This document shows positions 195 to 12,852 of a stretch of 12,852 nucleotides of DNA, in pieces. The DNA is from Oscillospiraceae bacterium. GTDB lineage: Bacteria > Bacillota_A > Clostridia > Oscillospirales > CAG-272. The stretch covers positions 1-12,852 of the forward strand of contig SVSO01000071.1 of NCBI GenBank assembly GCA_015064195.1, given 5' to 3'. A model generated the notes under the pieces. It made no database searches. It was not told the DNA's origin and worked only from the letters and a program-made list of their open reading frames with translations. A program made the translations under genes and the position numbers. Within the stretch, counting starts at the first letter, position 1. Each line of letters starts with the position of its first letter.

Positions 195-223
195 AAAAAC
201 GCCGCGCAGTGCGCGGCGTTTTT
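195..223. terminator. Bidirectional intrinsic terminator
   Basis: A perfect hairpin has arms at 195-207 and 211-223 with a three-base loop (agt). The GC core is CGCCGCGC pairing with GCGCGGCG, flanked by an A-tract on the left and a T-tract on the right. It therefore gives a U-run in either direction. It begins a few bases past the TAA (227-229) of the minus-strand ATPase gene and immediately follows the TAG (192-194) of the plus-strand AraC remnant, so it ends transcription from both sides. Confidence 0.93.
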
Positions 224-226
224 TGC

Positions 227-3200
227 TTATTCCATCATTCTGCGAATCTCGTCGGGTTCGGGGATCGTGTAGGGCTTCAACTGGAAGGTATTCTTCACGC
301 CGTCCGTGTAATAGACCGTGTTGTCCCGCAGTCCGGCCACCGACACGCCTTCGATGAGGCTGTCCGCATCGCCGGCGGCAAGGGAGAAGATGACACGCTC
401 CGGGAATCGGGACAGCAGATTCTCGCCGTAATACATACACTCCTTCACCGTCTGATATTCGAGGCAGGTCACGACAAAATGAATGCCGTAGCCCGAGCCG
501 TCGGCCATCATCCGGATGAGCTTCTGCGACACATCGCCGGAATCCCCCGCATCTCTGGCGGCAAACATACTGTTGACCGCCGCAAAGGGATCGGCCGGAT
601 CGAAGGCTTCCTCTGATTCGTCCAGATACTCGCTCTCGTCGATCATTTCGCCCTTCATCATAGCTTTGACAAGATCGAGGAACTGGAGATTGCGGATGAC
701 AACGAAAGTCACATCGTCACTGCCGTGCTTTTTGCGCTCACTGTAGCTCTGATACAGCTCATTCACGAAGCGGATGATGTCGCCCCGCTCCCGTGCGATA
801 TGCAGTCTGCCGCATACGGACAGCGCATCGTAGAACGTCTCCGACACGCCGTCGCCCACCAGCAGATCGCCGTCCATCAGGTAGACTTCGGCGTTCCGGT
901 TGGTCAGCGCGGAAATCATATAGCCGTCCGCCACGGTATTGGCCATCTTTTCGCTTGCACCGCAGACCAGCAGATTGTGCCGCCGCTTTTTGTCGATGGT
1001 CGTCACAAACGGCGGTGCAACCTTAATAAGCTCGCCCATGTGAATGCGCACGGGAAGCTCGCTTGTGGGGACGATGCCCTCCGCCGCAAAATGCGCGGCA
1101 AGAGATGTCGTCCGTCCGCCCTCGAAGGTCTGGAGCGTATAGGGATAATCAGCGAAGGTCAGGCTGATTTTTTCAAGATAAGCCTTCTGGGTGTCGGCAT
1201 CGCAGTAGGCTGCACGGAAGCCGATATTGCCCGCTTCCGTGTAGTCCGGATTCATCACCGCTGTGCCGATGGGGCCTTTCATCATGGTCAGCGCCTTGGC
1301 ATCATTGTCCGCGAACAGATAGCGTGCATCGCTCTCGGCGCATTTGAGGCCGATACGGATGCGCATCTGCTCCACCGTGCCGTGGGACAGGGTGAGATCG
1401 GAGATGACCTTGGTGGACTGAGTCGCCATGAGCAGATGGATGCCGAAGGCGCGGCCCTCGGTCACGATGCGCTTTGCCAGCTCCGCGCAGTGCATCGCCA
1501 CCTTGCGGTTGGCGGAATCGTTGAACAGGATCTGGAATTCGTCCATGATGACGAGGATGCGCGGCATGGGCTTGCCCGCCTCTCTGGTATAGCCGGAGAT
1601 GCTGGTCTGACCCGCCTCCTTGAACAGCGTGCCGCGATGCTCCATCTCCGCCACCAGACGCTCCAGAATGCTCTCGCCGAATTCCTGCATGGCATCCAGT
1701 GCCAGCAGCTTGATATGGGGCAGGCGAACGGATTCGTAAATCTTGAACTCCGTGCCGCTCTTGAAGTCCATCAGGTAAAGATTCAGCTCATCCGGGCTGT
1801 AGGCGAGCATACTGCTCATGATGATGGTGTGCAAGAGGGTGGATTTGCCCGAACCGGTGGCACCGGCAATCAGACCGTGATGGGACGATCCTTCACCGAT
1901 GGTCAGGTTCACGATGCTGTCACCGTCGCCGACGCCCACGGGAATGGACAGTTTTTTCGCGGAGCTTTCCGCAAACAGCTGACGCGGCAGGATGTCGCCG
2001 AAGGAAAGACCCTGCTTTTTCACCGCCTCGCACTGCTTTGCATATTCCGCAGCAAAATCGTCCGCATCATCCGCCGTCGGCGTGTCGGGAATGCCGATGG
2101 GCAGGTTGTAGGGCATGAGCCGATACTGACCGTCCCGGTATTCCACAGATGCGCAGACCTTGGCCAGCTGCTCCATCCGGTCGTCCATGTTGTCGTAGCG
2201 AGAGAAATTGACGGAGGGATTGCGGCAGATGACCGTGTAAACGCCGCATTTTCCGCCGTTTCTCAGGATGCTGGTGAGCCGATCCATGGAGCGTCCGTCC
2301 ATGCCCGCCGGGAAATCGTAGAGCATGAGCAGTGTCACCGGCTCGGCACGGCGCGGTGTGGCGCGGTTATATTCGAGAATATCGCGGAAACGGTTGCCCA
2401 GCTTTTCCTGAATGAAGTCGTCGATCTGGGCGTTGATCTTTCTCAGCCGGTCGCAGATATCATCGGGGCTGGTGTAGATCTTCGCATCAAAGGCTTCCGG
2501 CACGCGCTTGCGGAAATCGAGGAAGGGGATGACGCTGTTGCCCCGCTGTTCCGCATCGAAAATGCACACGTTCACCTTCGTCACCGGCAGCTCCGATAAG
2601 AAGCTCCAGATGAGGTGATGGGACAGGGTGAGCATCTCCCGTGCGCTTGTCTCCGGCGCATGAAGCAGCAGATTGAAGGGACTGCCAAGCTCGAAGGTGA
2701 GAGGCATTTCGGCAAAGGCGGTGTTTTCCGTCTCCATGCGGCTCTCGCATCCGAACTGCTCCATGATCGGGTCATGGCACGCGCTGTCGGCGAACACATC
2801 CGCCGGATACAGCACGCTTCCCAGTGTGAGCGAATCCGGGAAACCGGCGGATTTGTCGGGCACGCGGCCATAGGATTCCGCAAAGCCGCGCATTTTTTCG
2901 TTGATCTCGTCAATCCCGGCCGCGATCTTCGCCGCATCGGTGGTCTCCATGAGCCGCCGCATGAAGGGCGGAAAGGCGATGCCGCGATTCTTGATGCCCT
3001 CGCAGATGAGCAGATATTTGCTGAAAAACTGGGAGAATGCCGCCTTGTCGGGCATGGGATGGATGAGCAGCGGCAGGCCATGGAAGAGCATCTCGCCGCC
3101 GTTCTGACTGAGTGTCGTGGTAAGGCCGGTCACCGCCTGCAGATTCTGCGCAAATTCGCGGGAATAGTTCCCCTCATCGTCCTTTCGGTTGATGATAAGG

Positions 3201-4597
3201 GTGTAAATGCCGCACCGCGCACCGTTTCGCAGGATATTGCGCAGCTCAGCAAGCGATCGCTCATCAAATCCGCGGGGGAAATCGTACAGCACCAGCAGTT
3301 CTGCGGCTGGCTTGTATCCGTTTGCGGCGGCGGCATAGTCGTAAACCGTGTCGTACTGATTACCCAGCCGGTTCTGGAGCATATCCTCGATCCTGCCGAT
3401 CAATGCCGCCAGCTTTGCCGTGATCTCATCGCGGCTGACAAAAATGCGCTCGCCGAACAGCTCCGGCAGTTTTTTTCTGGCATCGAAGAAGGGCGAAATG
3501 CTGCTTCCCCGATTTTCCGGATCAACGATGGCGAAGGTCAGCTGTCCCACCGGGCAGGCGCACAGCATTCCGTACATGACCGAATGGGTGAACAGCTGGA
3601 GCGTCTCCATGCTCTGACCGTCAGCGGCCAGCATCCACGCCGGTGCGTCGGATGCGGAGATCATCACGGGCAGTCTCACCGCGCCGTTAACTAAGATCTT
3701 CGCGCATTTGTCCTTGATGACCGAGGCGACGATCTTCGACTGGACAAAGAAATCCACCGGATAGTCGATGTAGGCCATGTACAGCACCTCATTGGTGAGC
3801 GTGCCGGAGGTGTTGACCCGGTGCAGGCATCCGCCGTGATCTGCCATGATGGCGTGGAGATAATCCACGAAGGAATCGGGCAGGATGTTGTCAAGATCGG
3901 TGCAGATTTTGTCCGCCGCCGCGTCGATGGCGGACAGATACCGCTCCTCAAAGGCATCCGACTCCGCCTTATGGGTGCCGGTCATGGCACTGCGTCCGGC
4001 GAGATATTCATCCTTGAGGGCGGACAGATGATCGTTTGTCAGCGTGGGAAGCACTTCCTCGATCTCGCTGACAAAGGATGCCACCGTGTTGCGCAGGATG
4101 ATGAGATCCTCATAATCCTGCTTGCGTTTGCCGGAAAAGAGAAAATTCAATCCATTGAGCAGTCCGGGCAGGATGTCCTCCGCGTATTTTTTGTACAGCA
4201 CATCGAACTCGCCCTTGAGGGTGCGGAGAACGGCGAAATAATCCGTCGCACCGTCGTACTTTTCGTTGGTGACATTCCGCAGCTCGGCTATCTTTTTCTC
4301 TTTGGTTTTGAGATAATATTTGTCAACCTTGGACAGCCGGTCATCCAGCAGGTCGATCTCCGCAAGGATGCCACGCGCTTCCGTGATGGTCAGCATGGAT
4401 TTGTCCTGCACCGAGGTATAGTTCGCCTTATAGGCAGCGTCATAGCTGCCGAGGGCTTTGCTGTGGGATGCCGAAAGTGCCGCCCTGCCCTGCTCATAAT
4501 CCTGGGTCAGTCCGGCGGCAACGGCTTCCGCTCTGTCCGCAAATGCGTTCAGATCGGCCACCAGCGCTACGATTTCCTGTTGTGCCAATGCTTTCAT
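227..4597 (-). CDS. FtsK/SpoIIIE (EssC/EccC-like) multi-domain ATPase of a type VII secretion-like locus
   Basis: This 1456-residue protein opens with a helical, probably coiled-coil region (about 1-250) and carries four FtsK-type modules. Modules 1 (about 300-540) and 2 (about 630-860) are mutual repeats with no Walker A lysine; both keep a Walker B-like strand, LYDFP. Module 3 (about 880-1150) is intact: Walker A GATGSGKS at 912-919, Walker B ILVIMDEF at 1014-1021 and sensor-like MATQS ending at 1061. Module 4 (about 1180-1456) has a degenerate P-loop (CGASEKMAN, 1212-1220). EssC/EccC ATPases power export of WXG100 proteins and also carry serial modules of which some are dead. Unlike them, this protein shows no clear membrane helices and no FHA domain. 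The ATG has an AAGGAAGG ribosome site and lies 11 bp after the E1-like gene. It is the last gene of the operon. A DNA translocase role is possible but less likely beside three WXG100-like genes. Confidence 0.9.
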   Translation of the reverse strand: MKALAQQEIVALVADLNAFADRAEAVAAGLTQDYEQGRAALSASHSKALGSYDAAYKANYTSVQDKSMLTITEARGILAEIDLLDDRLSKVDKYYLKTKEKKIAELRNVTNEKYDGATDYFAVLRTLKGEFDVLYKKYAEDILPGLLNGLNFLFSGKRKQDYEDLIILRNTVASFVSEIEEVLPTLTNDHLSALKDEYLAGRSAMTGTHKAESDAFEERYLSAIDAAADKICTDLDNILPDSFVDYLHAIMADHGGCLHRVNTSGTLTNEVLYMAYIDYPVDFFVQSKIVASVIKDKCAKILVNGAVRLPVMISASDAPAWMLAADGQSMETLQLFTHSVMYGMLCACPVGQLTFAIVDPENRGSSISPFFDARKKLPELFGERIFVSRDEITAKLAALIGRIEDMLQNRLGNQYDTVYDYAAAANGYKPAAELLVLYDFPRGFDERSLAELRNILRNGARCGIYTLIINRKDDEGNYSREFAQNLQAVTGLTTTLSQNGGEMLFHGLPLLIHPMPDKAAFSQFFSKYLLICEGIKNRGIAFPPFMRRLMETTDAAKIAAGIDEINEKMRGFAESYGRVPDKSAGFPDSLTLGSVLYPADVFADSACHDPIMEQFGCESRMETENTAFAEMPLTFELGSPFNLLLHAPETSAREMLTLSHHLIWSFLSELPVTKVNVCIFDAEQRGNSVIPFLDFRKRVPEAFDAKIYTSPDDICDRLRKINAQIDDFIQEKLGNRFRDILEYNRATPRRAEPVTLLMLYDFPAGMDGRSMDRLTSILRNGGKCGVYTVICRNPSVNFSRYDNMDDRMEQLAKVCASVEYRDGQYRLMPYNLPIGIPDTPTADDADDFAAEYAKQCEAVKKQGLSFGDILPRQLFAESSAKKLSIPVGVGDGDSIVNLTIGEGSSHHGLIAGATGSGKSTLLHTIIMSSMLAYSPDELNLYLMDFKSGTEFKIYESVRLPHIKLLALDAMQEFGESILERLVAEMEHRGTLFKEAGQTSISGYTREAGKPMPRILVIMDEFQILFNDSANRKVAMHCAELAKRIVTEGRAFGIHLLMATQSTKVISDLTLSHGTVEQMRIRIGLKCAESDARYLFADNDAKALTMMKGPIGTAVMNPDYTEAGNIGFRAAYCDADTQKAYLEKISLTFADYPYTLQTFEGGRTTSLAAHFAAEGIVPTSELPVRIHMGELIKVAPPFVTTIDKKRRHNLLVCGASEKMANTVADGYMISALTNRNAEVYLMDGDLLVGDGVSETFYDALSVCGRLHIARERGDIIRFVNELYQSYSERKKHGSDDVTFVVIRNLQFLDLVKAMMKGEMIDESEYLDESEEAFDPADPFAAVNSMFAARDAGDSGDVSQKLIRMMADGSGYGIHFVVTCLEYQTVKECMYYGENLLSRFPERVIFSLAAGDADSLIEGVSVAGLRDNTVYYTDGVKNTFQLKPYTIPEPDEIRRMME

Positions 4598-4608
4598 AAT
4601 GGCCTTCC

Positions 4609-5760
4609 TTACTTTTCTTCCAGCTCAAAGGCACACTCGCCCTTGCAGTCACGGCCAAAGCCGACCACAAGCGAAGTCGTGACCTGAAGCGGATAGCTGA
4701 AGATTTCCACCATTTCGCCGCCGATGCGCGGATCGCTGGTGTTGCAGATGAGGGTGTACTGCTTAAGATTGTTCAGCAGACGGGGAATGTAGCCCTCACT
4801 GCTTTCGTTGAGGATGTCGATGATCAGCTTGATGCCGATGGAGGTGATGAAATTGATGTCCACGGAAATGCCCGGCTCGAATTTGAGGCCCTCCACATTC
4901 TGCTGATTGGAGTAGACGTGATGGTTTGCCTCCACTCTGCCCGACAGATCGCCGCTTCCCAGCGCACACTTGTAGCAGGGCATATTTTTGTGGGGGATGT
5001 GATAGAAGATCTCGCCCGCATAGGCACGCTCCCAGAAGCCGATGGAGATGAACGCCGCGTCGTAATAGATGGCGATCTTGTTGGCGTATACGTCCGCAGT
5101 TCGATTGTCTGCACAGCCGACAAAGATCGTCTCGCCCGGCGCGCACATTTCATCGAGGATCGCTTTGTTGATGTTCTGCACGATGCCGCCGAAGGTGCGC
5201 ACCTCCACCTTGGGATTGATGGCGAGAAGCTTGCGGCGGAGCGCATTCACCTTCAGGTCGCCCACATCCTCAATGCCGCACTGATGCCGGCAGAGGTTGT
5301 GATACTCCAGCGTATCCGAATCGCACAGCACGAATTTGCCGACGCCGAAACGGGCCAGCTCCATGGCCACAAGACTGCCCACCGAGCCGCATCCGAGAAT
5401 GACCGCGCATTTTTTCTGCATGACATCCGTTTCGAGAATGCCCTTGTTGCGGGAGAAAATGCTCTGATACAGGCCGTAGGATTCCACCGTCACCTTCTCG
5501 CCGTTCCAGAAAAAGTCCATGCCGTCCGCAGTTTTCACGGCGCACAGTCCGTCGATCGGCGCACTGCCGGCATCCAGCACCGTGCCCAGAAGCTCGCCCC
5601 GCTCTGCCAGCTCTGCGGGGAAAATGTTGAAAATACCCGTGTCCTCGAAATATCGGCCGCGCAGTTCGGTCATGCCGGTATCATGCAGCTGCTCCTCGGA
5701 AATAAACACGGTCAGCGGAATGTCCTCGCCGAAAAAATTCTTGGGGATTTTGATTTCCAT
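4609..5760 (-). CDS. ThiF/E1-like ubiquitin-activating-type enzyme
   Basis: The 383-residue protein contains an E1/ThiF/MoeB adenylation domain at about 115-315. It has the nucleotide loop GCGSVGS (G123, G125, G128), D147-x-D149, R158 in NLCRHQ, K170 in DLKVNAL and D218 in CADNRTAD. These are the ATP/Mg-binding and catalytic positions of the family. C262-x2-C265 and C372-x3-C376 probably form a structural zinc site, as in many ThiF/E1 enzymes. Residues 1-110 are an extra domain I do not recognise. Family members adenylate the C-terminus of a ubiquitin-like or other protein and pass it to a cysteine; the catalytic cysteine here is not obvious. The ATG abuts the TAA of the JAMM gene, with its GAGGAG ribosome site inside that gene, so the two are translationally linked. 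It sits with E2-like and JAMM genes, which supports a conjugation role rather than thiamine or molybdopterin synthesis. Confidence 0.9.
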   Translation of the reverse strand: MEIKIPKNFFGEDIPLTVFISEEQLHDTGMTELRGRYFEDTGIFNIFPAELAERGELLGTVLDAGSAPIDGLCAVKTADGMDFFWNGEKVTVESYGLYQSIFSRNKGILETDVMQKKCAVILGCGSVGSLVAMELARFGVGKFVLCDSDTLEYHNLCRHQCGIEDVGDLKVNALRRKLLAINPKVEVRTFGGIVQNINKAILDEMCAPGETIFVGCADNRTADVYANKIAIYYDAAFISIGFWERAYAGEIFYHIPHKNMPCYKCALGSGDLSGRVEANHHVYSNQQNVEGLKFEPGISVDINFITSIGIKLIIDILNESSEGYIPRLLNNLKQYTLICNTSDPRIGGEMVEIFSYPLQVTTSLVVGFGRDCKGECAFELEEK

Positions 5761-6744
5761 TTATTTCTCCTCATTTCTGCCAAATGTGATGATCTTGATG
5801 ACGGAATTCAGCATTTCGCCGTGCTTTTTCGGCTTCTTTTCCTCAGCCTTTGCCGCATCCTTATCCGCCTTCGCCTTGCCGTATGCCTCCGTCAGCACAC
5901 CGACAGCGTAGTGATACCGCTTGCCCCCATATTGCAGGACGAGGGCCTTTTTGTCGGATGCCGCCGTGACGACAAGCTTTGTTGTGCCCTCCGCCGCATC
6001 CTGATAGAGCATGAGTCCGCCCTCCGCCGTCTTGATGGCCGTCTCCACCTTGAGCGTGTCCGCCAGAAAGGTCAGGTCGTCGATGATGGCATCTGCCAGC
6101 AGCTCCTGCACCGCATCATCCATGGGAGCGGCGGATTTTTCCTCGGATTCGGTGAGATACGGTTCCACCAGCCGCATGAAGCCCGCCAGACTTGCCGCGC
6201 GGTGATAGCCCGGACGGTTGGTGCCGCGATGGAGCAGGCTGTCCATGAGCGCGCCGAACTGCTCCGGCGTTTTGTAGCGAAGGAGCGCATCGGGGATGAG
6301 ATGATCGCCCACATCGTAGGAAAGCTCCGTATAGCGGCAGGCGCGGTTCACGTGATACATGGTGATGCGGAAATCCGGGTCGATGTTGACCAGCGCGGAG
6401 ATCGCACCCTCTGTGCGCATGGACGCATATTTGAGATTCGTGCCGTCATCTGTGGACGAAAACTCATCGAAAGAGCCGGGATGACGATGCCACAGACCGA
6501 TGAGGGACAGCTTGGCCGCGTAAAGATTGGCGATCTTGTTGATGAGATGCTCGGTGTATTTCCGATCATATTCAAAATATGCGATCTCGAAGATGGATTT
6601 CGGGCCGGGATCGATGGCTTCGATGATGTACCATGTGTCATTTTCCACCGCGCCGAGAAACAGTCCGCCCGTCTCCGTCCGGATCTTCTCCGCCGTTTCC
6701 GCCATGACAGCGGCATAGGCTCTGTTTGAAAAAATTACTCTCAT
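5761..6744 (-). CDS. JAMM/MPN-domain metalloprotease (deubiquitinase-like) with C-terminal extension
   Basis: The 327-residue product has an N-terminal JAB/MPN domain (about 1-135) with a full zinc-protease signature: E24 in RTETGG, then H86-x-H88-P and S96-x2-D99 in WHRHPGSFDEFSSTD. JAMM enzymes hydrolyse isopeptide or peptide bonds next to ubiquitin-like C-termini. In bacterial E1-E2 systems they process the modifier or reverse conjugation. A helical middle (about 150-225), a probable beta-rich segment (about 230-285), a Lys/Ala/Glu linker (about 290-307) and a short amphipathic end are not typical of minimal JAB proteins. I chose ATG 6744 because GGAGG (6750-6754) sits five bases upstream; an upstream TTG (6756) would overlap that site and add only four residues. 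The gene follows a hairpin placed after the E2-like gene and abuts the E1-like gene. Confidence 0.9.
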   Translation of the reverse strand: MRVIFSNRAYAAVMAETAEKIRTETGGLFLGAVENDTWYIIEAIDPGPKSIFEIAYFEYDRKYTEHLINKIANLYAAKLSLIGLWHRHPGSFDEFSSTDDGTNLKYASMRTEGAISALVNIDPDFRITMYHVNRACRYTELSYDVGDHLIPDALLRYKTPEQFGALMDSLLHRGTNRPGYHRAASLAGFMRLVEPYLTESEEKSAAPMDDAVQELLADAIIDDLTFLADTLKVETAIKTAEGGLMLYQDAAEGTTKLVVTAASDKKALVLQYGGKRYHYAVGVLTEAYGKAKADKDAAKAEEKKPKKHGEMLNSVIKIITFGRNEEK

Positions 6745-6749
6745 AGCTT

Positions 6750-6754
6750 CCTCC
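6750..6754 (-). promoter_or_regulatory. Ribosome binding site fixing the JAMM gene start
   Basis: Minus-strand GGAGG lies five bases before ATG 6744. Its position rules out the in-frame TTG at 6756, which overlaps it, as the real start. Confidence 0.85.
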
Positions 6755-6765
6755 AAAATAAGACA

Positions 6766-6797
6766 AAAGGGCCGCCGCGTTTGATGCGGCAGCCCCT
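6766..6797 (-). terminator. Internal terminator or attenuator hairpin between the E2-like and JAMM genes
   Basis: Read on the minus strand, GGGCTGCCGC (6795-6786) pairs with GCGGCGGCCC (6778-6769) through a seven-base loop. That gives a ten-pair stem with one G-U wobble. TTTTGTCTTATTTT follows. This is the shape of an intrinsic terminator, eight bases past the E2-like stop codon and just before the JAMM ribosome site. No new promoter is visible after it, so the distal genes (JAMM, E1, ATPase) must be reached by read-through. The interrupted T-tract fits partial termination. Confidence 0.7.
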
Positions 6798-6804
6798 CAA
6801 GGCA

Positions 6805-7359
6805 TCAATAATTGCCTTCCATCGCGACATCGTCGCCGATTTCGCCGTTCAGCCACATTTCGCAAAGGATGATCCATTTGCACGCCCAGCTGAGTGCGGA
6901 CGCCGCAGACGTGGACTGGGTCACATCGCCCTTGAAATATTTCGGGTCGGCGGTACAGATGAAGTACTCCTCGTTCCGGCCGAAATTATCGCGGTAAATG
7001 TGGGGAAGTCCGAGGCCGAAACCACGGCGGCAGACCTCATCGTAATCGTTGTTGTAGGTCTGCATGACGATGGGCATCACCTTCTCCGCCACATCCTTGA
7101 GGCGGGGATTCAGCGGCAGAATCTGCACCGTTCCGCCGTATTCGTTGGCACTGCCCACGTGGGGATGGGTGTTCTTGTAGATGAGCATGATATCCCATAC
7201 CATGCCGCCTTCACCGGTGGGCTGAACCTTGCCGCGCCAGTAAAGTCTTCCCGAGCCGTCCTGCAGCTGATTGATGGTGAAGGACGGGAAGAATTTCTGC
7301 ATCGCCGCAACCTCCATCTGATAGAGCTGCGGGTCGCTCTGATACCAATAATACGCCAT
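6805..7359 (-). CDS. E2-like (ubiquitin-conjugating fold) protein
   Basis: The 184-residue protein fits the divergent prokaryotic E2 fold. A helix and beta-meander occupy about 10-85, with strands around RLYWRGKVQP and MVWDIMLIYKN followed by LPLNP. Next comes LPHIYRD with H120, a strand carrying C135 (YFICTADP), and a C-terminal tryptophan-rich helix, ALSWACKWIILCEMW (W158, W162, W169). Bacterial E2 relatives in CBASS and Bil-type operons show the same order: P-H-[IV]-Y, a nearby catalytic cysteine, then a W-x3-W-type helix. C135 is the predicted thioester cysteine, although the spacer between H120 and C135 is longer than usual. The ATG has AAGGAGGG just upstream, and the gene starts 11 bp after the 63-residue gene. 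The JAMM and E1-like genes directly downstream support the call. Sequence similarity to classical E2s is low, so structure prediction is the proper test. Confidence 0.78.
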   Translation of the reverse strand: MAYYWYQSDPQLYQMEVAAMQKFFPSFTINQLQDGSGRLYWRGKVQPTGEGGMVWDIMLIYKNTHPHVGSANEYGGTVQILPLNPRLKDVAEKVMPIVMQTYNNDYDEVCRRGFGLGLPHIYRDNFGRNEEYFICTADPKYFKGDVTQSTSAASALSWACKWIILCEMWLNGEIGDDVAMEGNY

Positions 7360-7370
7360 GGAAGCCCTCC

Positions 7371-7562
7371 TTATGCCAGCTTGCCGTCAGGCACCTGAAT
7401 GCCGGACAGACCCTGCTCGACTGCTTCGTCTTTTCTTTCCACCTCGCCGCTTGCCGTTACGACAACCGGTTCGCCGGTGCGGAGTGCTTCCGCCAGTGCA
7501 CGGCGTCTTGCCGCGATGGCATCGGCATTGGGAGTCTGCTGATTGTAGTTATTGTTATCCAT
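7371..7562 (-). CDS. Small orphan protein of 63 residues
   Basis: I do not recognise this product. It starts with an Asn/Gln-rich, probably disordered stretch (MDNNNYNQQ), followed by a basic-acidic helix (about residues 13-30). A short strand-like part (EPVVVTASGEV) and a flexible tail ending in DGKLA complete it. It has no cysteine, no signal peptide and no membrane segment. A GGAGGG ribosome site lies nine bases before the ATG, and the gene fits between the zinc/membrane gene and the E2-like gene with short gaps, so it is very likely translated. Its place beside the E2-like gene makes it a candidate modifier, adaptor or substrate. However, it is too short for a full beta-grasp fold and lacks a Gly-Gly end, so a ubiquitin role is not supported by sequence. 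Confidence 0.75.
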   Translation of the reverse strand: MDNNNYNQQTPNADAIAARRRALAEALRTGEPVVVTASGEVERKDEAVEQGLSGIQVPDGKLA

Positions 7563-7583
7563 AATTCAAAACCCTCCGTTTGA

Positions 7584-8576
7584 TTATGCGGCGAAGCTTC
7601 TGATGATCTCGCCGTTTTCGTTGATGGAAGCGACACAGCCGCGCAGTGCAGCCTCTGCCTGCTCCTCGCCCTGGGTCTGCACCATGCGTGCGTATGCGTT
7701 GTCCGCCAGATTGCTGTTCTGGGTGAGAAGCGTCTCCAGATCCACGCCCTTGTTCTGATTGCGGATCATGGTGTATTCCATGTAGTCTGCCATCTGCTGC
7801 AGTGCCGCAGAGTCAGACTCGATGAAGCCGGATGTTTCCTTTAAGTAAACGATATAGTCGATGGTGTTGCGAATGGTGTAGTAGATGCACTTGAATATGC
7901 CGACGAAGATCATTATGGCAAAGCCTATGGCCGCGCCGATAAATCCTGCGCCGGAGCCTTCATCGAAGCCTGCCTTGATCGCTTCCCACAGGCAGCTGAA
8001 GTAATACTTGACGAAGGACCAGAACACGCCGCCGATGCCGGCAAAGATGAGGCCATATACCAGACCGCCGCCGAAGCTGCCGGCCGAAATGCCCATGGAA
8101 AGGCCGAGGATAAAGCCGATCACCATACCGATGATGGAAAGGATGAAGTGGAATTTGATCTTGTTCTTATTCTTGGTCAGCTGCTTCACGTTGTCCGCAA
8201 CCAGCTCGCGGCAGCAATCGTAGCAGAGAGCCTGACCCTGATACTGTTCGTCGTTGACACCGTAGTTGTCATAGCAGTCCTGACAGATAAACTTTCCGCA
8301 TCTTGCGCACTTTGCCACTGCGGGCTGATCCTGATGATAGTAGCAGATCGGGCCGCGGGGAGGCGTGAAGGTGGGCGCCGCAGGAGGCGTGAAGACAGGC
8401 GCCTGATTTGCGGGCGGCGTGAACGTGGGCGCCTGCTGCTGAGCTGCGGGCGGAGTAAACGTCGGCACCTGCTGCTGAGGCTGAGCCGGCGGGGTAAACG
8501 TCGGAACCTGCTGCTGCTGAGGCTGAGCCGGCGGGGTAAACGTCGGGATGCCGTTGGGGTTCTGATTGTTGTTCAT
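7584..8576 (-). CDS. Membrane protein with FTPP repeats and a B-box/RING-like zinc module
   Basis: The 330-residue protein has three parts. Residues 11-73 are a Pro/Gln-rich tail with six copies of x-F-T-P-P. Residues 78-121 hold eight zinc ligands in binuclear treble-clef order: C78-x2-H81, C90-x2-C93, C98-x2-C101 and C118-x2-C121. The spacing is B-box-like. A polar Lys/Asn stretch follows, then hydrophobic segments at about 143-163, 169-189 and 209-233, and a helical C-terminal region (about 250-330). It is probably a membrane protein with the zinc module facing the cytoplasm. It is the only clear membrane protein in the operon and lies next to the E2-like gene. RING and B-box domains recruit E2 enzymes, so an E3-like or scaffold role is possible but inferred. 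The FTPP tail could instead be a docking sequence. ATG 8576 has AGGAGG nine bases upstream. Confidence 0.85.
   Translation of the reverse strand: MNNNQNPNGIPTFTPPAQPQQQQVPTFTPPAQPQQQVPTFTPPAAQQQAPTFTPPANQAPVFTPPAAPTFTPPRGPICYYHQDQPAVAKCARCGKFICQDCYDNYGVNDEQYQGQALCYDCCRELVADNVKQLTKNKNKIKFHFILSIIGMVIGFILGLSMGISAGSFGGGLVYGLIFAGIGGVFWSFVKYYFSCLWEAIKAGFDEGSGAGFIGAAIGFAIMIFVGIFKCIYYTIRNTIDYIVYLKETSGFIESDSAALQQMADYMEYTMIRNQNKGVDLETLLTQNSNLADNAYARMVQTQGEEQAEAALRGCVASINENGEIIRSFAA
8358..8546 (-). repeat. Imperfect in-frame tandem repeats encoding x-F-T-P-P
   Basis: Six imperfect units of about 24-42 bp encode [PV]-x-F-T-P-P separated by Gln/Ala-rich spacers, at residues 11-73 of the zinc/membrane protein. 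On the plus strand the units show as repeated GGCGGGGTAAACGTCGG-like words. Unit number could vary between strains through replication slippage. Confidence 0.85.
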
Positions 8577-8599
8577 GCGAAATAGTCCTCCTGAGAAGA

Positions 8600-8869
8600 T
8601 TAAAATTTTACTCGGTTATACTGATCCAGCGACTGCGCCAGCTGCTCAAGCTTCGGCAGTGCCGCATTCAGCGTATCCACCGGCGCGGCTGTCAAGCGGG
8701 CGATCTGATCCATCAGCTCCCGGAACTGCATGGCCTTGTCGTCATCCCATGCGGATGTCCGGGCAACGCCTGCACGGATGCCGGCACTGATGCGCTCGAT
8801 GTCGCGGACAGTGTTGGTGATCTCACGTTTCATTTCCCTGATCACTTCAGGGGATGCTTTTACTGCCAT
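8600..8869 (-). CDS. WXG100-like small helical protein (W-x-D type), third copy
   Basis: The 89-residue protein is almost entirely helical, with a mid-point turn carrying W41 (SAWDDDKAMQF). That is the helix-turn-helix plan and length of WXG100/ESAT-6 proteins, but the turn reads W-x-D instead of W-x-G. WXG100 proteins form four-helix dimers and are exported by, or help, type VII secretion. The C-terminal half resembles the neighbouring 93-residue protein (KLEQLAQSLDQY against KLEALLEAIEQY), so the two are paralogues. It ends LDQY plus five residues with a terminal Phe, a pattern shared with two neighbours. ATG 8869 has GGGAGG upstream. Ten bases separate its ATG from the stop of the preceding gene. 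Confidence 0.82.
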   Translation of the reverse strand: MAVKASPEVIREMKREITNTVRDIERISAGIRAGVARTSAWDDDKAMQFRELMDQIARLTAAPVDTLNAALPKLEQLAQSLDQYNRVKF

Positions 8870-8880
8870 AACTGCCTCCC

Positions 8881-9162
8881 TTACAGTGACGTGTTTTCAT
8901 ACTGCTCGATGGCTTCCAGCAGCGCTTCCAGCTTCCGGATGCATTCCTCAAGCTCGGCGATGGGCTGATTCAGCGCACCGCAGCATTCGGAAATGATGCT
9001 GCCCAGCGCCGCGTATTTCTGGTCATGCCAGCCGCCGGAGCCAGCCTGACTGTAGCTTCTCGCCAGCGATTTCGCCGCGCCGTCAAGCTCACGGATGGAG
9101 GTCTGTGCGCAGCCGATGCCGCCGCGAACCGCCGATTTTTCAACAGAAACGCCGTTTGCCAT
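8881..9162 (-). CDS. WXG100-like small helical protein (W-x-D type), second copy
   Basis: A 93-residue helical protein with a Gly-rich turn around W45 (GSGGWHDQKY), flanked by two amphipathic helices. The layout matches WXG100 proteins. The W-x-D-x-K-Y turn is shared with the first gene of the operon (WKDAKY). Two adjacent cysteines (C60, C61) in the second helix are unusual for this class. It ends IEQY plus five residues (last residue Leu), close to the ends of the 89- and 248-residue neighbours. The ribosome site is GGAGA before ATG 9162. It probably pairs with one of its paralogues, but which one cannot be told from sequence. Confidence 0.82.
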   Translation of the reverse strand: MANGVSVEKSAVRGGIGCAQTSIRELDGAAKSLARSYSQAGSGGWHDQKYAALGSIISECCGALNQPIAELEECIRKLEALLEAIEQYENTSL

Positions 9163-9180
9163 ATTGTTTCTCCAATCGAA

Positions 9181-9927
9181 TCAAAATGTGGTGGAAAGAT
9201 ACTGCTCAATGTACGCCAGACACTGGGACACGGCATTTGCCTTGCCCCGCGCCATGTCGGAGCTTTGGGATTCGATGCGGCTTGCCGCATTCACATAGGA
9301 ATTCACGGCGCTCTCCAGCCGCCACATGGCCCGCTGCAGCCGTTCCAGCTTATCCTTCAGCTTGGACAGGCGGTTCTTTTCCAGATCCAGCTCCTCCGCT
9401 GTCTGATCCCGCTTCACCTTCGTCACCTTGAGGGAATGCTCCAGCACCGCCTGACGCTCACTGAGGGAACGATGCTCCGCCTCCAGTCGGTTTATCTCGC
9501 TGTAGCAGTTCTTCAGCCGCTGTTCGCAGTGATAGATGGCATCCTGACGGTTCTGATAGCTGTCATCGTCCTCATCGCTTGAGGACTGAGAGCTGAGATA
9601 GCTGATCTCCGAGCGGAGGTGCGATGCCTCCGATTCAAGGGAGCGGATGGAGCGTTCGATGCGAGGAAGGCGTTCCTCGATCCCGTCCAGCTCCCCGGTC
9701 ATCTCCTTGATCTGCTTTTCCAGTGCGGCAAGCTCCCGCTCCAGCCGGTTGACCTTCGTTTCGGATTCCTCCACATCGATACGCGCCTGATTCAGGCTCG
9801 TCTGGCATTCCGAGAGGATGCCGGAGGTGCGATTGCTTGCACGGGATGCCATGCCGGAAATATCCGATTCAAACGCGCCGAGTGAATTTTTCACCTGACG
9901 CAGTGCTTCTGCGCTAACATCGATCAC
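9181..9927 (-). CDS. Coiled-coil protein, possible long WXG/LXG-type relative
   Basis: The 248-residue protein is almost wholly helical. Heptad-rich coiled coils at about 50-110 and 140-205 are joined by a Ser/Asp-rich acidic hinge (about 112-123), suggesting a hairpin of two long helices. The first ~45 residues (MIDVSAEALRQVKNSLGAF) and the last ~45 look like a split WXG100-type helical pair with the coiled coil inserted between. The end, IEQY plus five residues with terminal Phe, matches its two downstream neighbours. No enzyme motif, signal peptide or membrane segment is seen. It starts at GTG 9927, eight bases after the first gene, with a modest AGGTG site. It may be a structural or exported partner of the W-x-D proteins. 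Its exact family is unknown to me. Confidence 0.8.
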   Translation of the reverse strand: MIDVSAEALRQVKNSLGAFESDISGMASRASNRTSGILSECQTSLNQARIDVEESETKVNRLERELAALEKQIKEMTGELDGIEERLPRIERSIRSLESEASHLRSEISYLSSQSSSDEDDDSYQNRQDAIYHCEQRLKNCYSEINRLEAEHRSLSERQAVLEHSLKVTKVKRDQTAEELDLEKNRLSKLKDKLERLQRAMWRLESAVNSYVNAASRIESQSSDMARGKANAVSQCLAYIEQYLSTTF

Positions 9928-9935
9928 GGCGCACC

Positions 9936-10166
9936 TCAGTATTTTTCATTGGCGATGATGAGAAAATGGTCGATGGCCGAGCAGCAGTCGTCACCGGCCG
10001 TGATGAGATCCCGGGACTGTCTGGCGATCTGACCCACGGAAGCGGACAGCTCCCGGTATTTCGCATCCTTCCAGAGGGCGGATGCCGATGCGATGCCGGC
10101 GCTGAGATTCTTCACCGCCGCCTCAAAATCGCGCACATCCTGCCGGATAAGCTCCGAGCCCATCAT
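9936..10166 (-). CDS. WXG100-like small helical protein (W-x-D type), first gene of the operon
   Basis: A 76-residue helical protein with the turn ALWKDAKY (W32), flanked by two helices. It is a WXG100-like protein with W-x-D in place of W-x-G and is paralogous to the two other small proteins downstream. I prefer ATG 10166 because GGGGTGA lies just upstream at an ideal distance. ATG 10187 is in frame (83 residues) but has no ribosome site. Its end (IDHF plus eight residues) is a looser version of the C-terminal pattern in its neighbours. A double cysteine lies in helix 2 (CC at 61-62), as in the 93-residue paralogue. It is the first gene after the operon promoter. Confidence 0.78.
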   Translation of the reverse strand: MMGSELIRQDVRDFEAAVKNLSAGIASASALWKDAKYRELSASVGQIARQSRDLITAGDDCCSAIDHFLIIANEKY

Positions 10167-10168
10167 TC

Positions 10169-10175
10169 TCACCCC
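10169..10175 (-). promoter_or_regulatory. Ribosome binding site of the first operon gene
   Basis: Minus-strand GGGGTGA lies two bases before ATG 10166 and contains GGTGA, complementary to the 16S 3' end of Firmicutes. It favours 10166 over the in-frame ATG at 10187, which has no comparable site. Confidence 0.6.
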
Positions 10176-10230
10176 GAATCTGTTCATTCTGCCAATAAAA
10201 TGCTTTACTTTGTTTAATGTTTTCCCTGAT

Positions 10231-10259
10231 AGTATAACATATTTTTAACCATTTGTCAA
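10231..10259 (-). promoter_or_regulatory. Sigma-A promoter of the ten-gene operon
   Basis: On the minus strand a perfect -35 box TTGACA (10259-10254) is followed by a 17-base A/T-rich spacer and TATACT (10236-10231), preceded by TG as in extended -10 promoters. Transcription should start near 10224, giving a leader of roughly 58 bases to ATG 10166. A second TTGACAAA copy lies 12 bases upstream (TTGACA at 10271-10266), overlapping the pepT stop codon. The box quality suggests strong, possibly constitutive expression unless repressed. No obvious operator palindrome is seen. Confidence 0.9.
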
Positions 10260-10267
10260 TAGTTTTG

Positions 10268-11485
10268 TCAACAATCAGCGTATAATTTTGCGATTTCCAC
10301 AATCTGGAGCGCGCCCTTGTCCATCTCTTCTGCAACGGCATATTCAAAGCGTCCATGGCAATTGTGCGCACCTGTACCGAGGTTGGGACAGGGCAGTCCC
10401 ATGTAGGACAGCCGGGAGCCATCGGTGCCGCCGCGGATGGGATGGATGATCGGTTCTCCGCCCAGCGTCCGGATGGCTTTTCCCGCATTGTCGATGATGT
10501 GGCGCACCGGTTCCACCATCTCCCGCATATTGCGGTAGCTGTACCGGATCTCCGTCTTCACCGTGCCCTCTCCGTACCGGCGGTCAAGCTCCTCCGCCGC
10601 ACGAACGGCATAGTCCAGCCGACCGTCAAGCTTTGCCGCATCGTGGTCGCGGACGATGAAATGAAGCTCCGCCGATTCCACCGTGCCGCTCATGGAGGTG
10701 AGATGATAGAAGCCCTGATAGCCTGTCGTATGCTCCGGCCGCTCCAGTGCGGGAAGCATGGCGAAATATTCCTGCGCGATGACGGATGCATTGCGCATGG
10801 TATTCTTGGCACTGCCGGGATGGGTGCTGACACCGGTGACAGTGACGGTGAGGGATGCGGCGTTGAAATTCTCATATTCCAGCTCGCCGAATGCACCGCC
10901 GTCCAGCGTATAGGCAAACGCCGCGCCGAATGCTGCCACGTCGAACCGATCCGCGCCCCGGCCGATCTCCTCGTCCGGCGTGAATCCGATGCGGATCTTT
11001 CCGTGGCGGATGGTGGGATCGGCAAGCATCAGCTCCGCCGCCGTCAGGATGTCCGCGATACCCGCCTTATCGTCCGCGCCCAGCAGTGTGGTGCCGTCGG
11101 TGACGACGAGCGAACATCCCGCATACCGGGACAGCGCCGGATATTCCGCCAGCCGCATGACGATGCCGTCGCTGAGGGTCACGTCTCCGCCCTCGTATTT
11201 GACGAGCCGGGGACGGACATTTTCAAAGGGAACGCAGTCCACCACGTCCATGTGGGCGATGAAACCGATGACCGGCGCATTCTCACAGCCCGGTGTCGCG
11301 GGGATCGTGGCAAAAAGATAGCCGTTTTCGTCAAGCGTGACCTCGGAAAGTCCCATTTCCCGCATTTCATCGGCCAACACCTTTGCAAATTCCATCTGCG
11401 AGGGCGTTGTGGGGCAGGTATCGCTCGCTTCATCGGATGCCGTGGGATACACGGCATAGCGCATCAGTCGTTCATATGCTCTCAT
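10268..11485 (-). CDS. pepT: Peptidase T (tripeptide aminopeptidase, M20B)
   Basis: The 405-residue protein has the length and motif layout of peptidase T, a cytoplasmic two-zinc enzyme that removes the N-terminal residue of tripeptides. Predicted metal ligands and catalytic residues are in place: H78 and D80 in AHMDVVD, bridging D139 in GADDKAG, E172/E173 in PDEEIG, D195 in YTLDGG and H377 in NCHGRFEY. These positions fall within one or two residues of those I recall for the Salmonella enzyme. The dimerisation domain lies between about 205 and 320, and the substrate loop RGGTDGSRLS at 351-360. The ATG overlaps the preceding acetyltransferase stop (ATGA) and has GAAGGAG upstream. No terminator follows, so some transcripts may run on into the WXG-like operon. 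Confidence 0.96.
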   Translation of the reverse strand: MRAYERLMRYAVYPTASDEASDTCPTTPSQMEFAKVLADEMREMGLSEVTLDENGYLFATIPATPGCENAPVIGFIAHMDVVDCVPFENVRPRLVKYEGGDVTLSDGIVMRLAEYPALSRYAGCSLVVTDGTTLLGADDKAGIADILTAAELMLADPTIRHGKIRIGFTPDEEIGRGADRFDVAAFGAAFAYTLDGGAFGELEYENFNAASLTVTVTGVSTHPGSAKNTMRNASVIAQEYFAMLPALERPEHTTGYQGFYHLTSMSGTVESAELHFIVRDHDAAKLDGRLDYAVRAAEELDRRYGEGTVKTEIRYSYRNMREMVEPVRHIIDNAGKAIRTLGGEPIIHPIRGGTDGSRLSYMGLPCPNLGTGAHNCHGRFEYAVAEEMDKGALQIVEIAKLYADC

Positions 11486-12327
11486 TTTTTGTTCTCCTTC
11501 GATGCCATCATGTAATACTGGCAGATTTTATACCCGGCGTAGCCGTACATCACGTCAAGACCGCTGTAGGTGTAGCCGAGAAATGCGGTTTTCATCCCGC
11601 CGTCATGCAGTGCCTTTGTTCCGTGGATGGTCAGATTCACGCCGATATGCCGGCCGCGGTGAGAATGCTTCACCGATGTGCAGCCGACACTGCCGATGCC
11701 CGCTCCCTCCGTGCCGAAGCTTACAATCAGCGTGCCGACAATTTCCCCGGCATCCTCCGCAACGAGAATACGCTGATTCTCGCTGTCAAATTTGTCCGCT
11801 GTATAATATTTCGTAAAGGACGGATGAGCGTCCTCCGTGCAGACGTGAATCGCCGGAAGATCCGCCGCCCTCGCAAAGCGATAGCAAATCGCGCTCGCTT
11901 CCGGTTTCGCCGAAAAATCCGCCAGCGCCATTTTCATATCAAAGCACTCACAGCCCCAGTCATGCGCATAGCCGCGCTTGGCAAAAAATGCCGCCGCGCC
12001 CTGTAAATTTCCGCCGCAGACCGGGCCGTCTGACGGCACACCGGGGGTAATATATCCATCCCCCGCACCGATCACGATGCGCTCTCCGACTGCTGCCGCC
12101 TCCGCTTCAAGGAGCAGCTCCGAGCCGATGCCGCGCCCTCGCCATTCCGCGTCCACGCACAGCATCCGGATGCAGTTTTTGTGTACCGCCGCCGCACCGA
12201 TGAGTTTTCCGTTTTCATAACGCCCGATCACTCTGTTTTCCGGATCGGCAAGAAGCTGCCGCACGGTTTTCTCCGAACGCACGGTATCGGGGAAATTTCT
12301 GAGATACAGCTCGTACAGCTCGCTCAT
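11482..12327 (-). CDS. Tandem GNAT-domain acetyltransferase
   Basis: The 281-residue protein contains two GNAT folds. The N-terminal domain (about 1-135) has the acetyl-CoA pyrophosphate loop WRGRGIGSELL (62-72) and the typical AAAFFAKRGY ending (111-120). The C-terminal domain (about 147-275) has HRGRHIGVNLTIHG (223-236), where H227 replaces the usual glycine of R-G-x-G-x-G, followed by a GY-x-Y-AGYK end. GNAT enzymes move an acetyl group from acetyl-CoA to an amine on a small molecule, peptide or protein. The substrate cannot be told here. Tandem GNATs often keep one active domain, and here the N-terminal one looks better conserved. The gene overlaps both neighbours by ATGA, and its own ribosome site is weak, so translation is probably coupled to the dehydrogenase gene. 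Confidence 0.88.
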   Translation of the reverse strand: MSELYELYLRNFPDTVRSEKTVRQLLADPENRVIGRYENGKLIGAAAVHKNCIRMLCVDAEWRGRGIGSELLLEAEAAAVGERIVIGAGDGYITPGVPSDGPVCGGNLQGAAAFFAKRGYAHDWGCECFDMKMALADFSAKPEASAICYRFARAADLPAIHVCTEDAHPSFTKYYTADKFDSENQRILVAEDAGEIVGTLIVSFGTEGAGIGSVGCTSVKHSHRGRHIGVNLTIHGTKALHDGGMKTAFLGYTYSGLDVMYGYAGYKICQYYMMASKENKK

Positions 12328-12852
12328 ACGATGCGGTTGAGACCCGTGCCGGTTTTGGCGTAGCTGTCCATGGAAGCGGCGATGACAGCCAGCAGACGCT
12401 CACGGGATGCCTTGCTTGCCCATGCAATGTGGGGGGTGATGATGCAGTTTTTCGCCGTCAGCAGCGGATTTTCGGGGAGTGCAGGTTCAACAGCCAGCAC
12501 ATCCAGCGCCGCACCAGCCAGCTTGCCGGAATTCAGTGCCGCTGCCACATCCGCCTCGTTCAGCACTGCGCCGCGGGAGGTGTTGATGAGATATGCGCCG
12601 TCCTTCATTCTTTCGATCATCGCCGCATTCACCATGCCCCGCGTCGCATCGGACAGCGGGCAATGGAGGGAGATGGCGTCGCTTTCCGCAAGAAGCGTCT
12701 CAAGCGGCACGAATTTCACTGTGTCTGTGTCATCGTGATGATGAGGCGTGTGGGCGATGACCCGCATTCCGAGGGCCGATGCCGCCGCCGCGACACGCTG
12801 TCCGATGTTGCCGCAGCCGATGAGTCCCAGCGTGAGATCCGCAAGCTCGGTG
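12324..12852 (-). CDS. D-2-hydroxyacid dehydrogenase, C-terminal part (cut by the window edge)
   Basis: The last 175 codons of a gene whose 5' part lies beyond base 12852. The visible frame begins TELADLTLGLIGCGNIGQRV, with the NAD-binding loop G-C-G-N-I-G at visible residues 12-17. The family's catalytic set follows: R93 in NTSRGAV, E122 in LAVEPALPENPL and H141 in TPHIAW. The ending PHIAWASKASRERLL resembles glycerate dehydrogenase/hydroxypyruvate reductase-type members, which interconvert 2-keto and D-2-hydroxy acids with NAD(P)H. The exact substrate needs the missing N-terminal catalytic half. Its TGA overlaps the ATG of the acetyltransferase gene. The open frame continues to the edge without a stop, so truncation is only by the window. 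Confidence 0.93.
   Translation of the reverse strand, partial: TELADLTLGLIGCGNIGQRVAAAASALGMRVIAHTPHHHDDTDTVKFVPLETLLAESDAISLHCPLSDATRGMVNAAMIERMKDGAYLINTSRGAVLNEADVAAALNSGKLAGAALDVLAVEPALPENPLLTAKNCIITPHIAWASKASRERLLAVIAASMDSYAKTGTGLNRIV

Follow-up and report, generated by a model that had tools for sequence, protein, structure and literature searches.

A clostridial operon that joins type VII secretion-like components to E1, E2 and JAMM enzymes and to a short peptide that is a candidate modifier

We describe here a ten-gene operon contained in a 12,852-nucleotide stretch of DNA (the window), which is positions 1 to 12,852 of contig SVSO01000071.1 (GenBank assembly GCA_015064195.1) from an Oscillospiraceae bacterium. 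The operon encodes three small WxD proteins (W1, W2 and W3), a coiled-coil partner, a zinc/membrane protein (ZnTM), a 63-residue peptide, an E1-like adenylating enzyme, an E2-like conjugating enzyme, a JAMM metalloprotease and an FtsK-type ATPase. We consider it probable, from gene content and sequence comparison, that the operon specifies an exporter of WxD-tagged toxins that resembles the type VII secretion system (T7SS) and is controlled by the E1, E2 and JAMM enzymes, and that the peptide is a processed modifier lacking the beta-grasp fold. A broader proposal, to which we give slightly better than even prospects, is that the peptide belongs to a class of helix-hairpin modifiers of about 50 residues, encoded as single genes, polyproteins or E2 fusions, processed by JAMM after a conserved GKLA and attached by E1 and E2, which controls a new clostridial exporter; in another lineage (the distant locus L038) the module would sit beside a different motor, and a distant exporter (L050) has a kinase/phosphatase set in its stead.

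The ten genes are arranged head to tail on the minus strand with intergenic gaps of 0 to about 60 bp. A promoter-like site upstream matches 11 of 12 consensus positions (a consensus match only, for which shuffled sequences give an expectation of 0.3), and directly 3' of the ATPase gene is a strong hairpin with a U-run after it, a feature that a pattern scanner did not report. These features fit the single-promoter, ten-gene unit proposed in a preliminary description made from the letters of the window, and on this arrangement the predicted operon is confirmed as real. One genome-contig scan using E1 as bait, in which E1 is present in all loci by construction, yielded 28 related loci, mainly from bins labelled Clostridia, with E1 identities of 64–79%; the loci include a named strain, Faecalibacterium prausnitzii ATCC 27768 (L010). 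Six-frame profile searches recover the full set of ten families in 22 of these 28 loci, and in the remaining six (L008, L011, L012, L016, L027 and L028) the contig ends inside the operon. Two of these, L027 and L028, share a bin and could be the two halves of a single locus. Because the profiles were mostly built from the same loci, the counts speak to presence and not to independent homology. As judged from these sequences the co-occurrence is not due to chance and the set is complete within the clade. The preliminary description had called for this survey and had named random absence of the E1, E2 and JAMM genes as the pattern that would tell against its joining of a T7SS-like ATPase and WxD set to an E1-E2-JAMM pathway; that pattern is not seen, and family scans and co-occurrence both support the joining.

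The most conserved parts by mean identity are E2 (80%), E1 (69%) and the peptide (66%), followed by JAMM (52%), the ATPase (48%) and W2 and W3 (47%). Mirror-distance tests, from which rows outside set length limits were removed (25 of 28 FtsK rows were retained), give r values of 0.69 for E1 and FtsK, 0.63 for E1 and E2, and 0.63 for E1 and ZnTM, each with 0/2000 shuffles, and the test is only partly supportive.

The preliminary description listed the peptide as an orphan; its presence in the operon stands, whereas its role as a likely modifier had been missed. In each of the 26 E2-bearing loci a gene for the peptide, coding for 54–70 residues, immediately precedes E2, and seven of the nine last residues in the tail motif IxVPxGKLA are invariant across 34 rows. 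Among the best 120 of 343 homologues, one of which is the window's own, 112 end exactly at the motif and eight carry three or four residues past it; for the window and the 26 loci, 18/27 end at the motif and 9/27 have extra residues. An AlphaFold model of the natural fusion protein P0116 predicts that the peptide forms a helix, a short hairpin and a short second helix. None of the 34 members matches a Pfam family above chance (best 0.0016), and a known fold from the Protein Data Bank was rejected, the matches (to 4e-7) being helix-only matches to designed proteins, with no stretch passing alone. We also note that a JGI record calls the peptide 'putative integration host factor subunit alpha' (P0187 and P0158), which is probably a misnomer. 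Two other candidate modifiers were considered and set aside. A beta-grasp protein hidden in the operon is not indicated, there being no Pfam ubiquitin-like family among the matches listed for the ten proteins, and the C-terminal half of JAMM (window 5761–6400) cannot be a universal modifier because it is missing in six loci (L007, L008, L012, L013, L018 and L023); elsewhere it is poorly conserved.

The distantly related locus L038, which comes from an Oscillospiraceae record, encodes an in-frame fusion of the peptide to E2 and also another protein with the peptide at its N-terminus. A search with the fusion protein returned 89 proteins, two of them L038's own, and with five closer ones a total of 94 were examined; the few with named sources are from Oscillospiraceae, Treponema, Prevotella, Muribaculaceae, Chitinophagaceae and Clostridium. 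The peptide unit is present in 80 of the 94 (once in 62, twice in 12 and three times in six), E2 follows it in 78 of these 80, and the last unit ends in GKLA in 61 of them; of the 18 proteins with multiple copies, 17 carry E2. In eight proteins neighbouring copies share at least 92% identity, and in six of these (P0245, P0257, P0272, P0283, P0284 and P0314) the units abut with gaps of 0–1 residue, those in P0242 and P0246 being spaced; the units of the other arrays are diverged or spaced. With a loose pattern, a short copy of the tail motif is found before the first unit in 53 of 71 cases, whereas 500 shuffles averaged 6.7 and never exceeded 14. By analogy, a peptide encoded in tandem or fused to E2 is the layout of polyubiquitin precursors and ubiquitin-fusion genes.

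The E1 and JAMM signatures are intact, as first described. E1 matches ThiF (7.6e-27), and the best solved-structure match of its profile is MccB (2.5e-14), tied with UBA5 (4e-14). Its conserved cysteines are Cys124, 157, 161, 262, 265 and 339, and the CxxC together with the C-terminal cysteines looks like the usual zinc site. JAMM matches Prok-JAB (8.2e-7) and contains the motif HxHx7SxxD (HRHPGSFDEFSSTD in the window), the residues of which are at least 90% conserved in 28 rows. E2 has no match in the Pfam copy searched, although it matches the PADLOC E2 profile (8.7e-9), and in structure comparisons with two AlphaFold models all 50 matches listed for each model are UBC/UEV folds, the closest among them being E2s of the cyclic-oligonucleotide-based anti-phage signalling system (CBASS). 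Foldseek alone finds no E2 match below 0.001 (best 0.19), and the assignment is based on VIA alignment, on the motif and on PADLOC profiles. On these models the E2 fold holds for the protein in which an E2-like pattern of His, Cys and Trp was noted at the outset. Cys135 is invariant in 42/42 rows and in 18/18 divergent rows, and His120 is also invariant in the divergent set, in which Cys160 varies. All three enzymes match CBASS-like and 6A-MBL models.

The ATPase matches FtsK_SpoIIIE (2.5e-28), the T7SS model EccCa (1.1e-37, with 130 bits far under the model cut-off of 509) and EssC (4.4e-30, below the full-length cut-off), and by these matches it appears to be an FtsK protein of the EssC/EccC type, as in T7SSb. 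Hydropathy, on which this point depends, gives no clear N-terminal transmembrane segment and a single marginal internal stretch. W1, W2 and W3 are small helical proteins with W-x-D in place of W-x-G, the W and D of W1 being conserved at 90% or more in an alignment of 21. Of the three, only W3 matches WXG100 (PF06013), at 2.5e-4 and below the cut-off; a downstream protein of L017 with a related N-terminal domain passes (27.6 bits against a cut-off of 27.3). EssB, EsaA and the ubiquitin-like YukD/EsaB were each found in none of eight genomes, mostly metagenome-assembled (seven with the system and one with the divergent L038 locus), and a Bacillus subtilis positive control was matched in each case; for EssB and EsaA this agrees with the lack of T7SS membrane partners reported previously.

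Directly downstream of the ATPase are 17 proteins with a W2-type WxD N-terminus and varied C-terminal domains, one to three per locus in 14 of the 26 loci having a closed ATPase frame. None lies upstream of the ATPase in the 26 loci, three longer matches on that side being an over-extended W1 and two proteins of the coiled-coil family. The downstream sequence of L014 is limited to 1.25 kb, and the ATPase frame of L015 is short. All 17 proteins were scanned, and five score above the cut-off of a toxin or peptidase family: ADPrib_exo_Tox (7.4e-27), Colicin-DNase (9.3e-21), Gln_amidase (1.8e-12), the nuclease WHH (8.1e-9) and the C39-like peptidase Peptidase_C39_2 (1.7e-6). In L001, L003, L005 and L009, whose toxins are related, the gene immediately after the toxin belongs to a small conserved family that is immunity-like in its position, this being where immunity genes sit. 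An M48 metalloprotease family is present downstream of the ATPase in 13 loci (e.g. L007 15553–16428; this member, the one scanned, scores 8e-25) and is possibly part of the exporter. Predicted toxin export is well supported by this protein architecture, and the WxD fusions appear to be polymorphic toxins with a WXG-type N-terminus, as are found in T7SSb. The original suggestion of a secretion system with putatively covalently modified parts is strengthened by these WxD-fused proteins.

We propose the following sequence of events. The peptide would be made with a GKLA C-terminus, or JAMM would cut tandem and E2-fused precursors after the alanine, and E1 would then adenylate the C-terminal alanine. 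Such a residue would be an acceptable donor, since cGAS in CBASS is conjugated through a C-terminal glycine or alanine, according to the portion of PMC10097602 drawn on here. The peptide would next be carried by Cys135 of E2, the conservation of which is observed, following transfer either straight from the adenylate or through another cysteine of E1. E2, perhaps at the membrane with ZnTM, would attach the peptide to lysines in components of the exporter or in WxD substrates, the FtsK-type motor would move WxD proteins and WxD toxins, and JAMM would remove the mark. ZnTM has a zf-B_box match (7.8e-5, below the cut-off), a proline-rich N-terminus, three hydrophobic segments by hydropathy and a conserved C-terminus, NGEIIRxFAA, and is a possible membrane E3-like platform.

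Several considerations weigh against this model. What the sequence itself shows is which genes are present, the fold of E2, the residues of the active sites, the architecture of the toxins and the layout of the polyproteins, and from these we infer conjugation of the peptide; no lysine is singled out as its target, and the parts found include no candidate for a translocation channel. None of the conserved E1 cysteines is at what we take to be the catalytic cysteine position of ThiF, UBA5 and ATG7, so that an E1 thioester is doubtful. The tail of a fused peptide is not free unless cleaved, because 2–5 residues join GKLA to E2 in the five fusions first read, and a non-covalent role is possible. 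Among the 94 proteins of the fusion set, 14 are without the unit, mostly E2s of about 154 residues or fragments with neighbours unseen, and several tandem arrays are diverged or widely spaced. Mirror-distance correlations of JAMM are weak with ZnTM (0.06), the peptide (0.09) and FtsK (0.22), perhaps owing to its variable C-terminus. No toxin family is matched above the cut-off by 12 of the 17 WxD-fused proteins, 12 of the 26 loci have no such protein, and the window itself, with just 226 bases downstream of the ATPase, has no toxin gene. Lastly, ZnTM could be the donor instead of the peptide because it ends in alanine, in 22 of 25 aligned rows.

This last point belongs to the alternative that survives best, and which we regard as unlikely, in which the peptide is a non-covalent adaptor or scaffold for E1 and E2, in effect an N-terminal extension of E2, and the donor is another C-terminus such as that of ZnTM, as cGAS is in CBASS. 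The position of the unit ahead of E2 in nearly all unit-bearing proteins is as expected of such an adaptor, as are the matches of E1 and E2 to CBASS-type models, and the AlphaFold predicted template modelling score rises from 0.72 for E2 alone to 0.80 for fusion P0116, which is compatible with docking. However, the profile searches do not find ZnTM in L038 or L040, where the peptide is present, and near-identical abutting units and genes that stop at GKLA suit processing better than tethering. We prefer the peptide as a processed modifier.

The distant relatives L038, L040 and L043 all encode the peptide. At L038 the peptide, E2, JAMM and E1 are beside an ATPase resembling the coupling protein of type IV secretion systems (TrwB_AAD_bind, 1.7e-47), and this ATPase and a second large protein (805–3504) precede the peptide-bearing proteins, E2 fusion, JAMM and E1. 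L040, an IMG/VR contig with an E1 about 50% identical, has the peptide, E2, JAMM, E1, an EssC-like ATPase and a WxD protein; by our own labelling, terminase- and portal-like phage genes are at the contig start (29–2632). At L043, three recombinase-like large proteins, an integrase-like piece and an XRE-like gene (1745–8555) come directly before the peptide and E2, and these neighbours, again labelled by us, suggest a mobile element. Scans of viral contigs found two, L040 (also L041 and L042) and L043. A 67% match to E1 is in an unannotated faecal contig, MT836827 ('Bacteriophage sp.'), along with JAMM, an ATPase and a WxD protein, and this is probably a mislabelled bacterial contig. A plasmid or phage origin was rejected: no plasmid E1 match covers 80% of the query, the matches being below 60% identity and to ThiF domains, and searches of plasmids and phages for divergent E2s found none.

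A reverse search with the N-terminal part of the ATPase matched 3/291 and 3/148 genomes, centre genomes included. Of the four other matches, three loci were retrieved (L050, L051 and L052), the fourth (G055) being a weak match with a stop; E2 has no match in any of these four genomes, and E1, E2, JAMM and peptide have none in the three loci. L050 (genome G056, 3212–12768) encodes vWA, PP2C, kinase, FtsK and WXG-like proteins and a glutamine-deamidase toxin (Gln-amidase), and we read L052 as resembling a canonical EssC whose N-terminus is FHA-like. Because distant FtsK/WXG loci lack E1, E2, JAMM and the peptide together, the exporter and the conjugation module are separable, and the conjugation module seems to substitute for a phosphorylation module.

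The distribution is sporadic. E2 is found in 1/291 genomes of the class, 2/148 of the family, 1/398 of the phylum (A4) and 1/198 of the phylum of G006 (A9), and the peptide in 1/295 genomes of the order; the counts include the centre genome, and the only further match is G352. Such sparseness, along with recombinase or phage-like genes beside L043 and L040 and the resemblance of the three enzymes to CBASS-like and 6A-MBL models, would also suit an anti-phage defence of the CBASS or Bil kind with borrowed T7SS parts, which the preliminary description had offered as its second option. We consider this improbable, because varied WxD-fused proteins downstream favor toxin export over phage defence, and the small family that follows them points the same way; the option is further weakened in that no CD-NTase or cyclase model (E<=1) is among the matches listed for the ten proteins. 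More improbable still is that the 63-mer is a precursor like those of ribosomally synthesized and post-translationally modified peptides (RiPPs) and E1 its modifying enzyme, since although MccB, the tied best structure for E1, adenylates a peptide and RiPP precursors can have tandem cores, RiPP cores vary whereas this peptide is highly conserved, above all in its tail, and an E2 with an invariant cysteine and a JAMM have no known place in an MccB-like pathway.

Coordinates of the features are collected in Table 1. W1 probably starts at 10166, as the coordinates first given implied, in agreement with orthologues of 75 residues, and JAMM probably starts at 6744. Upstream of the operon, at 10268–12767 on the minus strand, are genes for an M20 peptidase (PepT-like), a double GNAT acetyltransferase and a D-2-hydroxyacid dehydrogenase. 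None of these flanking genes has a match in the 28 related loci, so the operon appears to sit in a variable place.

Table 1. Predicted features of the operon; positions are those of the window.
Feature	Positions	Strand	Basis or remark
Promoter-like site, TTGACA-17-TATACT with extended TG	10231..10259	-	Consensus match
W1, WxD helical-hairpin protein	9936..10166	-	Alignment of 21; longer frame from 10187
CC, coiled-coil partner, 248 residues	9181..9927	-	Present in related loci
W2, WxD protein; family is the N-terminal domain of downstream toxin-like proteins elsewhere	8881..9162	-	
W3, WxD protein	8600..8869	-	Weak WXG100 (PF06013) match
ZnTM, zinc/membrane protein	7584..8576	-	zf-B_box match below cut-off, hydropathy, conserved C-terminus
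63-residue peptide, proposed modifier, end GKLA	7371..7562	-	Homologue alignments
E2-like conjugating enzyme, active-site candidate Cys135, conserved His120	6805..7359	-	Profiles, alignments, models
JAMM metalloprotease, variable C-terminal extension	5761..6744	-	Frame open from TTG 6756
E1-like adenylating enzyme, ThiF fold	4609..5760	-	Family scan
EssC/EccC-like FtsK ATPase, coiled-coil N-terminus	227..4597	-	FtsK domain residues 893–1062
Hairpin and U-run, likely operon terminator	195..223	-	Folding z -3.9

If the proposed control of export by a processed peptide is correct, ubiquitin-type enzymes are not tied to the beta-grasp fold even with a dedicated modifier, the polyubiquitin gene layout arose in an unrelated peptide, a ubiquitin-type pathway controls a bacterial protein-export machine, and a T7SS-like system is added in gut Clostridia, including F. 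prausnitzii ATCC 27768. Because of their small size, the enzymes and the peptide lend themselves to direct reconstitution. Pup and UBact are likewise short modifiers without the beta-grasp fold, although they are attached by PafA-type ligases and not through E1, E2 and JAMM, the set that accompanies the peptide here. Among the papers listed in a search by title and abstract, with most subscription journals and all preprints outside it, none describes this gene set.

The E1-E2-JAB set and tandem modifiers are shared with the polyUbl/E2/JAB/E1 neighbourhoods of Iyer 2006 (PMC1779556) and with Bil operons, and prokaryotic tandem modifiers, some fused to an E2-like domain, are described in the consulted sections of a review (PMC11354881). 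The modifiers of polyUbl and Bil systems are ubiquitin-like domains, in contrast to the helix-hairpin peptide, and T7SS genes are not named with these sets in the sections of either source drawn on; in Iyer 2006, YukD is linked to the ESAT-6 system, without the E1/E2/JAB set being linked there. The survey of T7SS variants by Garrett, Higginson and Palmer 2024 describes T7SSa-j (PMC11217815), and as far as its main text was available 'JAB', 'ThiF', 'conjugating' and 'activating enzyme' occur 0 times. With those variants the operon shares an EccC/EssC-type ATPase, WXG-type small proteins and polymorphic toxin substrates; unlike them, as they are presented there, it has E1, E2, JAMM and the peptide, YukD/EsaB, EssB and EsaA are each at 0/8 genomes, and the ATPase has no obvious membrane anchor by hydropathy. 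The closest known case of conjugation via a C-terminus other than that of ubiquitin is CBASS type II, with Cap2/Cap3 and CdnG-E2, in which, by the portion of PMC10097602 cited above, Cap3, which is a JAB enzyme, cleaves a tandem fusion at the cGAS C-terminus. The operon described here differs in having separate E1 and E2 proteins, no cyclase among the matches listed, a short dedicated peptide, a T7SS-like ATPase and WxD toxins.

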